From Sulfurovum lithotrophicum (GTDB taxonomy: Bacteria; Campylobacterota; Campylobacteria; Campylobacterales; Sulfurovaceae), in assembly GCF_000987835.1 (NCBI RefSeq), contig NZ_CP011308.1, positions 744,001 to 808,000 on the forward strand: a DNA stretch of 64,000 nucleotides. Reading direction: 5' to 3'. The notes below the pieces were generated by a model. It saw only the letters and a list, made by a program, of their open reading frames with translations. It was not told the origin of the DNA and did no database searches. Of the stretch, positions 6,807 through 49,575 are shown in pieces. Each line of letters begins with the position of its first letter. The stretch's first letter is position 1. The translations under genes and the position numbers were made by a program.

Positions 6807-7714
6807 CCCAAGCCTATGAGCAGATGCTCTTTCATCCCCGATGGTACCACTATCCTGTCATCCTGCTATTGCTTCCGCTCTCTATTTTGTATGGAAGTTG
6901 GATGCTGTTCCGTAGAATACTTGCTTATAAAAAAGATTTTGGTATTCCTATTGTCAGTATAGGAAATCTCATTGTCGGAGGAAGCGGTAAAACCCCTTTT
7001 GTCATTGCGCTTGCATCCCGTTACAGTGACGTTGCGGTCATTTCACGCGGATACGGCAGGAAGAGCAACGGACTGGTCGAGGTGAGCCGGAGGGGAAAGA
7101 TACTTGTTTCCGTCGAGCAGAGTGGGGATGAAGCAATGTTGATGGCACTTTCCCTCCCCAATGCTTCAGTCATTGTAAGTGAGGATAGGCATGAAGCGAT
7201 CGCTTTGGCAAAGGGGCAGGGGGCGAAGCTCATCATTCTTGATGATGGTTTCAACCGGGTTGAGATAGAGAAGTATGAGATCCTTCTGGAGCCCGAAGAG
7301 ATCAAAAATCCATTTCCGTTCCCATCCGGTCCTTTCAGAGAGTTTGCTTTCACCAAAAAATATGCAGACCTGGTACTCAAGGAGAAAAGGGATTTTGAAA
7401 GAGTGGTAAGCTATGGAGATCCCACATCCAGAATGGTTCTTGTCACAGCCATCTCCAACCCCAAACGCCTGGAACGTTATCTTCCCACAGGAGTAGTAGG
7501 AAAAGTCTACCTGAAAGATCATGCCTATTTTGAAAAAGAGATGCTTGAAAGGCTGATGCAAAAGTATGAGGCACAAAGTCTGTTGGTCACCCAAAAGGAT
7601 CATGTCAAAATGGCGGGCTTTAAGTTGCCTGTCTCCCAAATTAAGTTAGAATTAAAGATAAAAGATGAGGTCTTTACAAAAATCGAAAGATATATTCAAA
7701 CCTATCATTCATAA
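6797..7714 (+). CDS. lpxK: Tetraacyldisaccharide 4'-kinase
   Basis: LpxK phosphorylates the lipid A disaccharide at the 4' position on the inner face of the cytoplasmic membrane. The protein (305 residues) has an N-terminal hydrophobic segment (about 18-36) and a family P-loop near 55-67 (SIGNLIVGGSGKTP), followed by ISRGYGR and the ILDDGF motif. It starts with GTG inside the end of the DUF455 gene, suggesting coupling. Slightly short for the family, but all core motifs are present. Confidence 0.93.
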   Translation: MSVTQAYEQMLFHPRWYHYPVILLLLPLSILYGSWMLFRRILAYKKDFGIPIVSIGNLIVGGSGKTPFVIALASRYSDVAVISRGYGRKSNGLVEVSRRGKILVSVEQSGDEAMLMALSLPNASVIVSEDRHEAIALAKGQGAKLIILDDGFNRVEIEKYEILLEPEEIKNPFPFPSGPFREFAFTKKYADLVLKEKRDFERVVSYGDPTSRMVLVTAISNPKRLERYLPTGVVGKVYLKDHAYFEKEMLERLMQKYEAQSLLVTQKDHVKMAGFKLPVSQIKLELKIKDEVFTKIERYIQTYHS

Positions 7715-7739
7715 ACTTCTTTAAAAAGGAATCTATAAA

Positions 7740-8591
7740 ATGAAACATAAGATCGATGTTGTCAAAACACTATTGGATGCCCTTCCGTTCATCAAGAAAT
7801 TCTCCAATGAAAAGATCGTTGTCAAATACGGCGGTGCCGCGCAGACAAGTGCCGAGCTTAAAGAACAGTTTGCACAGGATATCGTACTGTTGCATCTAGT
7901 TGGAATGAAACCCATTATCGTACACGGCGGGGGTAAAAGCATTACCCGGCTTTTGGCGGACCTGGGCGTAGATACCACGTTTGTAGACGGGCAGCGTGTA
8001 ACGACCAAAGAGGTGATGCGTATCGTCGAAATGGTACTTTCAGGTGAGATAAACAAAGAGATCGTCTCGCTTCTGGACAATCATGGGGCCAAAGCTATAG
8101 GCATCTCCGGAAAGGACGGTGGCTTTCTCAAAGGTATGCCAAAGGATTTTGAGAACTTTGGTTATACCGGTTTGATAGAAGATATCGACCCGGAGATCGT
8201 TGACAATATCATCGATGACGATGCCGTTCCTGTGATCGCTCCTATTGCAGGCAGTAATATTCTGGGACATCCCGGGTTCAATATCAATGCGGACCTTGCG
8301 GCAAGCAGGATTGCTGTGGCTCTGGAAGCCAGAAAAATACTCTTTCTGACGGACACTCCCGGCGTATTGGACAAAGAGATGGAACTGATCACCAACCTGA
8401 GCATCGAGCAAACGGAAGCCCTGAAAGAGGACGGAACCATACAGGGCGGCATGGTTCCCAAGGTCGATGCCTGCATCGAAGCACTCAGAGGCGGTGTAAA
8501 AAAAGCACATATCATCGACGGACGCGTAGAACATTCACTTTTGCTGGAGATATTGACAAGTACAGGTGTGGGAACCTGTATAGAGTTGTAA
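7740..8591 (+). CDS. argB: N-acetylglutamate kinase
   Basis: ArgB catalyses the second step of arginine synthesis, ATP-dependent phosphorylation of N-acetylglutamate. The 283-residue sequence carries the amino acid kinase signatures VVKYGGAAQTS, IIVHGGGKSITRLL, NINADLAASRIA and GGMVPKVDAC. The N-terminal helix (MKHKIDVVKTLLDALPFIKKF) is of the kind seen in arginine-sensitive hexameric enzymes, so feedback inhibition is plausible. It lies 25 bp after lpxK. Confidence 0.96.
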   Translation: MKHKIDVVKTLLDALPFIKKFSNEKIVVKYGGAAQTSAELKEQFAQDIVLLHLVGMKPIIVHGGGKSITRLLADLGVDTTFVDGQRVTTKEVMRIVEMVLSGEINKEIVSLLDNHGAKAIGISGKDGGFLKGMPKDFENFGYTGLIEDIDPEIVDNIIDDDAVPVIAPIAGSNILGHPGFNINADLAASRIAVALEARKILFLTDTPGVLDKEMELITNLSIEQTEALKEDGTIQGGMVPKVDACIEALRGGVKKAHIIDGRVEHSLLLEILTSTGVGTCIEL

Positions 8592-46674: not shown

Positions 46675-46716
46675 TGTGACAAAAGTCACATTCATATGTA
46701 TAAGATGTGTTATAAT
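46675..46716 (+). promoter_or_regulatory. CRP/FNR-like site with TATAAT for the trxC operon
   Basis: TGTGA-CAAAAG-TCACA at 46675-46690 is a perfect CRP-type palindrome inside a longer AATGTGAC/GTCACATT stem. TATAAT follows at 46711-46716. With a start near 46723, the site centre lies near -41, the usual class II activator position. The same site could also affect the divergent msrA gene. The regulator is not identified. Confidence 0.6.
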
Positions 46717-47189: not shown

Positions 47190-47853
47190 GATCCTGCTCC
47201 TTGAAGATGATGCCAATCTCAATGAGACCGTAACGGAGTTTCTTGAAGAGGAAGGGCATAAAGTTGTCTCTGTCTATGACGGCTATGAAGCCCAGGAAAA
47301 GCTCTATGAGAGCAAGTATGATTTATTACTTCTTGACATAAATGTACCGGGTATTGATGGTCTTGAACTGCTTAAGGAGAGTAGGGAAGAAGGTGTGGTA
47401 GCACCGGCTATTTTCATTACATCGATGGATTCGGTTGATGATCTTGAGAGAGGGTTTCAAAGCGGTTGTGATGACTACATTCGTAAACCCTTTGCACTAA
47501 AAGAACTGAAGATCCGTGTTGAGACCCTACTCAAACGCAGTTTCTTTCATGAATCCAAAGAATTGATAGCCATCGATGAGAACATCTCTTATGATAGCAA
47601 AAACGGAGAGCTGATCATCGACGGTGAGAGTGTTTCTCTGGGCAATAAGGAGTCCCGCCTGCTCAAACTCTTTGTCAAAAAAGAGGGAGAAGTTCTGGCG
47701 CATGAACGTATTTATGAGCATCTCTGGGACTATGATGAAGAGCCGAGCGATACGGCACTTCGAACCTATATAAAAAATCTTCGCAAGATCATCGGTAAGG
47801 AAAGAATTGTTAGCATCAAGAAACAGGGATACAAATTCATTGCTAAAAAGTGA
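47182..47853 (+). CDS. OmpR-family response regulator
   Basis: A 223-residue phosphorylation-dependent DNA-binding regulator. The receiver holds the acidic pair ED near 8-9, phospho-accepting Asp52 (LLLDINVPGID) and the late Lys (DDYIRKPF). The C-terminal winged helix ends YIKNLRKIIGKERI. Initiation is at a TTG inside trxC. Partner is the histidine kinase that overlaps it by 47 bp. Confidence 0.9.
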   Translation: MSKILLLEDDANLNETVTEFLEEEGHKVVSVYDGYEAQEKLYESKYDLLLLDINVPGIDGLELLKESREEGVVAPAIFITSMDSVDDLERGFQSGCDDYIRKPFALKELKIRVETLLKRSFFHESKELIAIDENISYDSKNGELIIDGESVSLGNKESRLLKLFVKKEGEVLAHERIYEHLWDYDEEPSDTALRTYIKNLRKIIGKERIVSIKKQGYKFIAKK

Positions 47854-48994
47854 AAAAAAATCCCTCTTAAGGTTCTTGGCACTCTATACGTCCCTGGTGA
47901 TCCTGCTTATCACACTGCTGTCCATCTTCTACTACCAGAGCCAGGAGAAGCTGATGTTCTCCAATCAGCGTGCAGAGCTTTCCAAATATGCCTACATACA
48001 GACCAAGCGTCTGAAGGTTCTGCACTATTTTTTTCCTGAGCGTACCACCTATCCCCGGGATCCACGCTTTAAATCGGCCATTTACGATATTGAATATAAG
48101 AAAATATTTTCTCTTCTTGAAAATGAGAATATCCATTTTAATGAAGAGATATACAGGGCCGGCAATTATATCCATTTTGTCAAACTTCTTGATACCTATT
48201 ATCTTGGGACCAAATACCTTATTATAGAAGTACCGGAAGATATGGCCTGGAAAAAGGAAGCCTGGAAGCAGATCGCTATTGGCAGCGTATTGGCTTTCAT
48301 ACTCTTTATGGTTTTCGGGCTTATCCTGGCACGACTCTTTCTGAAACCGATGCGTGACTCCATCGTACTGCTGGACCGATTTATCAAGGATACGACCCAC
48401 GAACTCAATACGCCGCTTTCCGCTATTCTGACCAATATAGAGATGATGGATACAGATGTGATGGCGGAGAAGAACAAAAAGAAACTCAACCGTATCAATA
48501 TTGCAGCCAAGACCGTTTCACAACTCTATAAAGACTTGACCTACCTGACCCTTAAACAGGAACAGAAGGATCATAAAGAAGAGATAGAACTTCAGGGGCT
48601 TATACGTGACCGAATAGAATATTTTACGGCATTGGCAAATACCAAACAGTTGTATTTTGAACTCGATACGGAAAATGTGATCATCCACGCCGACAAACAG
48701 AAGATCACCCGTGTGATAGACAATCTCCTCTCCAATGCGATCAAATATAATAAAAGAGGTGGTACTATCAGTATCAAATTGCGTATCGGCAGCCTGGAGG
48801 TCAGTGATACGGGTGTCGGTATAGATGAAGAGAAGATACCGTTCATTTTCGACCGCTACATGCGCTTTAACCAGAGCGAAGGGGGATTCGGCGTCGGGTT
48901 GAGTATTGTTAAAAAGATACTCGATGAGTATCATATCAAAATAGAGGTATACTCAACAATAAATAAAGGAACCAAAATGGTACTCACATGGTGA
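47807..48994 (+). CDS. Membrane sensor histidine kinase
   Basis: A 395-residue kinase with two membrane helices (about 22-42 and 160-182) flanking a periplasmic sensor of about 115 residues. The phospho-accepting His198 lies in DTTHELNTPLSA, with N-box (NLLSNAIKYN), G1 (VSDTGVGI) and G2 (GFGVGLSI) motifs. No HAMP is obvious. The TTG at 47807 follows a clear AAGGAAA; a later TTG at 47840 is possible. Overlaps the regulator, so the pair is coupled. Its signal is unknown; the neighbouring thioredoxin and cytochrome genes suggest redox. Confidence 0.88.
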   Translation: MLASRNRDTNSLLKSEKKSLLRFLALYTSLVILLITLLSIFYYQSQEKLMFSNQRAELSKYAYIQTKRLKVLHYFFPERTTYPRDPRFKSAIYDIEYKKIFSLLENENIHFNEEIYRAGNYIHFVKLLDTYYLGTKYLIIEVPEDMAWKKEAWKQIAIGSVLAFILFMVFGLILARLFLKPMRDSIVLLDRFIKDTTHELNTPLSAILTNIEMMDTDVMAEKNKKKLNRINIAAKTVSQLYKDLTYLTLKQEQKDHKEEIELQGLIRDRIEYFTALANTKQLYFELDTENVIIHADKQKITRVIDNLLSNAIKYNKRGGTISIKLRIGSLEVSDTGVGIDEEKIPFIFDRYMRFNQSEGGFGVGLSIVKKILDEYHIKIEVYSTINKGTKMVLTW

Positions 48995-48995
48995 G

Positions 48996-49180
48996 AACCG
49001 TAAGAAAATGTGAACTGCTTCACATTTTTAGGTTCGAAACCGGAGCGGTGGAGCAAAGCGACCCGTACAGGCCAACCGTAAGAAAATGTGAACTGCTTCA
49101 CATTTTTAGGTTTGAAACTGTGAAAGCCGTTAAATGAACGAGAAGAGTTTCTCGTTCATAGGCTTGGAACCGAAGGCGTT
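48996..49180. repeat. Tandem structured repeat block with hairpins and TGTGA-N6-TCACA
   Basis: Two 45-bp copies differ by one base (48996-49040 and 49074-49118, 78 bp apart). Each contains a perfect 10-bp hairpin AAAATGTGAA-CTGC-TTCACATTTT, with AACC and GGTT pairing outside it. A third unit (about 49126-49180) has a different hairpin (ATGAACGAGAA-GAGT-TTCTCGTTCAT) and GCC/GGC outside it. The first two stems also read as TGTGA-N6-TCACA sites (49009-49024 and 49087-49102). Lies between the kinase and the cytochrome gene. Confidence 0.7.
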
Positions 49181-49233
49181 GTCTTACAAAGACCGCCGTA
49201 GGAAAGTCAAAGTAAAACAAAATTAATAGGAGA

Positions 49234-49575
49234 ATGAGATTGATACAAAAATTACTGTTTATTGTCGTGCTGTTTACAGCCATACTGTCTGCCCAGAACG
49301 TCTATGAGCGCAATTGTGTCCCATGCCATAAGGATCTGTCGACTTCGCTGCAGCAGATGTTTAAAAAGTATCTGTTGGTCTATAGTGGAGAACAGAATGT
49401 CAAAGCGGGTATCATACACTATCTGCAATACCCCAACAGAAGTATCTCTGTGATGTCGAAACTTTTTATTGAGAGTTTCGGTATTAAAAAGAAAACGACA
49501 CTTTCCCCAGAAGAGCTGAACAGAGCTGTCGATATCTACTGGGAAAAGTTTAAGGTTTTTAATAAGTTGAAGTAG
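49234..49575 (+). CDS. Small periplasmic monohaem cytochrome c
   Basis: A 113-residue exported protein: signal peptide to about residue 20, then haem motif CVPCH (28-32). The rest is helical and ends VDIYWEKFKVFNKLK. Likely an electron carrier of the sulfur- or hydrogen-oxidising chain. Shine-Dalgarno TAGGAGA precedes the ATG. The first of four small secreted proteins in a row, three with c-type-like features. Confidence 0.8.
   Translation: MRLIQKLLFIVVLFTAILSAQNVYERNCVPCHKDLSTSLQQMFKKYLLVYSGEQNVKAGIIHYLQYPNRSISVMSKLFIESFGIKKKTTLSPEELNRAVDIYWEKFKVFNKLK

Follow-up and report, generated by a model that had tools for sequence, protein, structure and literature searches.

A two-hairpin repeat that begins at stop codons in Sulfurovum lithotrophicum and other Campylobacterota, probably a small mobile element

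Between a sensor histidine kinase gene and the gene for a small CxxCH protein, the genome of Sulfurovum lithotrophicum carries a run of hairpins, two of which read TGTGA-N6-TCACA, raising the question of whether the locus holds binding sites for a regulator, a structured RNA, or something else. It lies in a 64,000-nt stretch of contig NZ_CP011308.1 (positions 744,001 to 808,000; hereafter the window, in whose numbering coordinates are given). The tandem hairpins reported in the initial annotation are present: 45-nt units at 48996-49040 and 49074-49118 are identical at 44 of 45 positions, each with an inner AAAATGTGAA/TTCACATTTT stem and an outer AACC/GGTT pair, and a further hairpin at 49135-49158 has an outer GCC/GGC pair. 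The region folds strongly in comparison with shuffled sequences (z of -4.86 on the plus and -5.23 on the minus strand). The third hairpin had been called unrelated to the other two, but a covariance model of what is termed hairpin A below matches all three (48995-49041, 49073-49119 and 49124-49171; E 2.7e-14 to 6e-11), and the third is a member with another stem and the loop GAGT. All three units belong to a single dispersed repeat family; they are not CRP sites, nor do they make up a small-RNA gene of this locus.

The repeat unit is about 84 nt long and has two parts, hairpin A followed by hairpin B. In hairpin A, a 5-bp outer stem (GNNNC/GN'N'N'C) is separated by an internal loop (GTTAAR/TA) from a 10-bp inner stem, which is capped by a CTGC loop; the linker GRAACCG leads to hairpin B (for example GCGG-TGGAGCAAAGCGA-CCCGC or ACGG-TCGGAACAAAGTGGAG-CCGT), and the right end of the unit is GAAGGC. 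The consensus is GA GNNNC-GTTAAR-(10-bp stem, CTGC loop)-TA-GN'N'N'C-GRAACCG-(B hairpin)-GAAGGC. In the window the whole object is an A-B-A-A-B array that runs on the plus strand from the kinase stop codon at 48992 to 49203. The kinase gene (47807-48994, plus strand; HisKA and HATPase_c domains) has its stop codon interrupted: the TGA occupies 48992-48994, the covariance-model match starts at 48992, and the GA of the codon (48993-48994) forms the first bases of the element. The first A hairpin (48995-49035; outer stem GAACC/GGTTC, internal loop GTAAG/TA, 10-bp inner stem closed by CTGC) is followed at 49036-49072 by the linker GAAACCG and a B hairpin (GCGG-TGGAGCAAAGCGA-CCCGT) with right end ACAGGC, which together make the first AB unit (48992-49072; 85.2 bits). 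The second A hairpin (49073-49120) is a tandem copy of the first and ends in the linker GAAACTG. The third (49121-49165) opens with TGA, has an outer stem AAGCC/GGCTT, an internal loop GTTAAA/TA and an inner stem TGAACGAGAA/TTCTCGTTCA around the GAGT loop, and continues at 49166-49203 through the linker GGAACCG into the second B hairpin (GGCG...CGCC; right end CCGTAGGA), forming the second AB unit (49121-49203; 70.6 bits). The junction between the second and third A hairpins, GAAACTG directly followed by TGAAAGCC, is also found in genomes G024 and G016, while G014 has ...GGAACCA before the same TGAAAGCC. The array of G024 is shorter than that of G000 by 78 bp, exactly one repeat period, so arrays also change by recombination. 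Downstream, on the plus strand, lies the gene for the CxxCH protein (49234-49575), which has no Pfam match; in relatives with an empty site, the ATG of this gene and the stop codon of the kinase overlap (ATGGTAA).

Both A stems vary freely in sequence but remain paired, as the initial annotation had supposed from the stems of the window alone. Across 84 distinct copies from relatives, 96.6% of stem cells hold standard pairs and 422 stem cells have changed on both sides, compared with 110 after shuffling; the copies reach a covariation score of 0.642, shuffled sequences 0.181 and slid controls 0.04-0.10. The alignment behind these figures was fitted to the model and is thus biased towards it. 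The family model was built on eight copies aligned with MAFFT, and the MAFFT alignment of the first eight copies gives the same picture, its structure having been derived from those very sequences. Among 128 parsed A units there are 63 different inner arms and 45 different outer stems, with the CTGC loop in 100 and an inner stem of exactly 10 bp in 127, counts that cannot themselves prove pairing, as the parser demanded pairing and the TA. The stems contain 102 G-U cells but 40 A-C cells (p 2e-7), an excess that points to the plus strand as the folded one, in a model that itself tolerates G-U. In an orthologous element 3' of a gene whose product ends in YLDM, a compensatory change from A-U to G-C separates G000 and G024 from G014. 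The earlier proposal of RNA structure under selection therefore stands as regards covarying pairing. Because the copies are dispersed paralogues, however, that pairing may have been selected during movement (as hairpins of single-stranded DNA), in RNA, or both; on its own, covariation among such repeats does not prove a functional RNA.

The same survey of stems bears on the resemblance to CRP sites. The window holds three instances of TGTGA-N6-TCACA where 0.09 would be expected, and two of the three are these hairpins, perfect matches beyond what chance would give. That they serve as CRP/FNR-type DNA-binding sites upstream of a cytochrome gene is nonetheless highly improbable: the motif is found in only 6 of 128 A hairpins and is one stem variant among many, the 5' arms being of 63 kinds; the orthologous hairpin of G015 reads CGTGA..TCACG and that of G449 has another stem; and the conserved features are the pairing, the loop and the internal loop. 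The arrays stand at the 3' ends of genes that share no common pathway, not at the promoters of one regulon. Elsewhere in the window, a perfect CRP/FNR-type palindrome at 46675-46690 (TGTGACAAAAGTCACA) lies between two genes and outside the repeat family, and is therefore a better candidate for a real site. A separate small-RNA gene at 48.99-49.23 kb had also been suggested, and promoter support for it is absent at the array. The 3' positions and A/T-rich stems would suit intrinsic transcription terminators copied round the genome, but the stem is followed by TAGNNNC with no U tract, a terminator scan makes no call at the array, and one array stands between grpE and a dnaK-like gene, where a strong terminator should do harm; we regard this reading as very unlikely.

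The repeat is widespread. The array region matches 14 further places in the S. lithotrophicum genome (2,217,891 bp, a single contig), which has about 25 copies in all (26 model matches at E up to 10). By the covariance model, 42 of 60 relatives carry it, and across the phylum it is found at E<=1e-6 in 83 of 397 genomes, with 36 of 68 sampled genera of Campylobacterota represented. Neighbouring units are head-to-tail in 51 of 54 pairs and inverted in 3. A search of Rfam 15, with relaxed thresholds as well, returned nothing significant, the best hit being a chance-level match to SSRC8_2 far below the gathering score; the repeat resembles Rfam families as a covarying structured RNA candidate but matches none of them at gathering score. 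The papers searched do not describe it, the sole relevant one being on REP elements (PMC3733652). Phage records gave no match and plasmid records a single partial one, to a plasmid of Sulfurovum mangrovi; the exact A pattern is in none of the viral contigs. In one genome, G189, four A units lie directly 3' of phage tail gene stops (L322:1267-1317 and 7645-8341), in what looks like a prophage tail operon. On a contig of Candidatus Nomurabacteria (L310:3690-3741), an A-type hairpin with the GTTAAG internal loop, the CTGC loop and a covarying outer stem lies upstream of a tsaD-like gene, possibly through homology, transfer or convergence.

Comparison of filled and empty sites bears directly on how such copies arise. 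The kinase site is empty in most relatives (ATGGTAAA, ...ATGG TAA AAA), filled in G000, G024, G015 and G449 (...ATGG T(GAG ... GG(C))AAA), and occupied by a decayed remnant copy in G016. There is no target duplication: ATGGT/AAA becomes ATGGT(...)AAA, and the stop becomes TGA. In the kinase tree, G014, which is empty, falls together with the filled G000 and G024 (support 92/82), and empty G025 with filled G015 (83/74), which implies either repeated insertion at the same nucleotide or scarless loss. At groEL and argJ, the genes sampled without the element stop in TAA or TAG, apart from a single TGA, and those with it in TGAG. The simplest reading of these alleles is an insertion, without duplication, directly after the T of a stop codon and ahead of its two purines, whereby the GA of the element would rebuild the stop.

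The preference for stop codons extends to the family. The left end coincides exactly with the in-frame stop of an ORF of at least 60 codons in 33 of 69 distinct left contexts, against 10 and 11 of 69 in the other two frames, the stop being the TGA or TAA of the element. In several off-frame cases the element falls within the final codons of the gene, and translation stops at a TAA that the element supplies. At grpE (L004:1505-1518), where G024 and G015 share the start of the element, the protein ends ...RPAMVSTAK with its stop 14 nt into the element, so that the last residues VSTAK and the stop appear to come from the insertion. Genes with an element at their ends include fabG, groEL, argJ, serS, rimP and grpE. 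In 20 of the 33 cases the codon before the stop is ATG or TGG, against 10% of 427 other gene ends, a background that is raised by groEL and kinase orthologues. This preference for ATG and TGG can explain how different families come to have the same Met-ending genes filled. The left flank shows a bias (ATG, TGG, NGA or ACA before the T), and the right flank of single copies completes TAA, TAG or TGA (AA, AG or GA first) in 17 of 30. Three other readings of a hairpin at a stop were considered and rejected. Selenocysteine insertion, which would pair UGA with a hairpin, is at odds with proteins that end at normal length (FabG ...GGMYM, GroEL ...GGMM) and with the TAA or TAG of empty relatives; an encoded peptide is at odds with the TAA within GTTAA in most copies; and for an integron attC site, GTTAAGC resembles the R' box but the partner box is missing.

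Taken together, the repeat is probably a small non-autonomous mobile element with structured ends that lands in stop codons. On this reading a unit would split a stop codon after its T, ahead of the two purines, preferring ATG or TGG before that codon and leaving no target duplication, and the GA of the element would restore a TGA, which would leave the host protein unchanged and the insertion nearly neutral. Arrays would lengthen head to tail, both as units are duplicated and as further units insert into existing ones. Mobility without target duplication, guided by hairpin geometry, is likely: an enzyme acting on single-stranded hairpin DNA, as in IS200/IS605-like systems, and reading the geometry, not the letters, of the stems would explain both their covariation and the nearly fixed 10-bp length. 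Once inserted, an array would form a folded intercistronic or 3' RNA and may be kept for effects on the mRNA; an RNA function after insertion is plausible.

Such a function could instead be the reason for the repeat. As an RNA element that acts in cis at mRNA 3' ends or in intercistronic regions, spread by occasional duplication and kept by selection, it would fold just beyond the UGA at which the ribosome stops, and might protect the message upstream of it, uncouple translation of the following gene or bind a protein. The strand-specific G-U excess (partly favoured by the model), the compensatory change in the orthologous element, the left end exactly at the stop codon and the filling of the same gene ends in different families all agree with this; the re-used gene ends could be old copies under functional selection. 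Any given site, however, is empty in most relatives with no obvious consequence, many genomes lack the repeat, its host genes have no pathway in common and the G016 remnant is decaying, so we consider a primary cis-acting role possible but lean away from it. The mobile reading has its own difficulties: no autonomous partner was found, the target is degenerate whereas IS200/IS605 elements use one fixed tetranucleotide, and in the R2 repeats described below an AB unit replaces a small hairpin in place of a clean insertion.

R2 is a second dispersed family, seen in sister genomes (GGTTTCACTCGATAGC...GCCATCGAGTGAAACC, about 80 nt), whose small central hairpin differs in sequence between copies but stays paired (GGC/GCC, CACC/GGTG). 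An AB unit stands in place of this hairpin in some copies, so AB units combine with other palindromes too. The R2 loci are L052, L062, L079, L082, L083, L176, L178-L180, L208-L213 and L215, with empty versions at L231-L250, and L187 has the R2 layout with a different outer stem. A sub-family of the repeat in G039 (L075, L326, L327) has the linker GCACGACG and adjoins a partial antisense tRNA; at L075 the element is flanked by a direct repeat of about 60 nt that includes tRNA-like T-arm sequence.

The nearest known kinds are REP elements and hairpin elements derived from IS200/IS605. IS200/IS605-derived elements of the PATE type have hairpins at their ends, no terminal inverted repeats, no target duplication and a polar target. 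The present repeat likewise has a hairpin at each end, a polar target and no target duplication, and its ends (left TGAGNNNCG, right GAAGGC) are not complementary, leaving it without terminal inverted repeats. In contrast to those elements, its left boundary is only 1-3 nt from the hairpin, its target is degenerate where theirs is a fixed 4-5 nt, and it has no linked Y1 partner. With MITEs of the RUP, ERIC and Correia/NEMIS type it shares small size, lack of coding capacity and, probably, mobility and transcription into folded RNA, and it differs from them in having no terminal inverted repeats and no duplication of TA or another target. It resembles REP/BIME sequences as a short extragenic palindrome with many copies 3' of genes, covarying stems, clusters, and copies inside other palindromes. 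Unlike these it has no end tag, joins two different hairpins by a linker, forms head-to-tail arrays, sits in the stop codon, lacks association with Y1 genes and numbers tens rather than hundreds of copies. That it is a REP element moved by RAYT/Y1 transposases of the GTAG or CGTC super-families is unlikely. Its 3' positions and covarying stems are REP-like, S. lithotrophicum has three Y1 genes, and PMC3733652 lists Sulfurovum sp. NBC37-1 with both GTAG and CGTC REP families. Neither end carries a GTAG or CGTC tag, however, the ends being (T)GAG and GAAGGC with an internal TAG after the A stem, and its 51 head-to-tail versus 3 inverted neighbours are the opposite of the rule in PMC3733652, by which head-to-tail dimers are absent or rare and neighbours mostly inverted (HH/TT). 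Neither the presence of the repeat (Fisher p 0.57) nor, inside the genus, its copy number (rho -0.01) is associated with Y1 genes; a Y1 match is lacking in 15 of the 42 genomes that carry the element, and the element is at 0 of 32 Y1 loci. The repeat is set apart from the NBC37-1 families by their description in the text of PMC3733652, not by their sequence, and the two may partly overlap.

A broader possibility, which we offer tentatively and hold to be doubtful, is a new Campylobacterota-wide class of stop-codon-targeted, frame-healing elements, with machinery that recognises hairpin geometry and leaves the stem sequence free, copies that also serve as RNA modules, and possibly a trace in Patescibacteria. 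If the proposed explanation is correct, repeats that land in stop codons would occur across a whole bacterial phylum, in which close relatives can be compared with and without a copy at a single nucleotide position, and the choice of target, possible scarless excision and the mobilising enzyme would become testable. A selfish repeat would then break the translational overlap of neighbouring genes (ATGGTAA) and leave the upstream protein undamaged.
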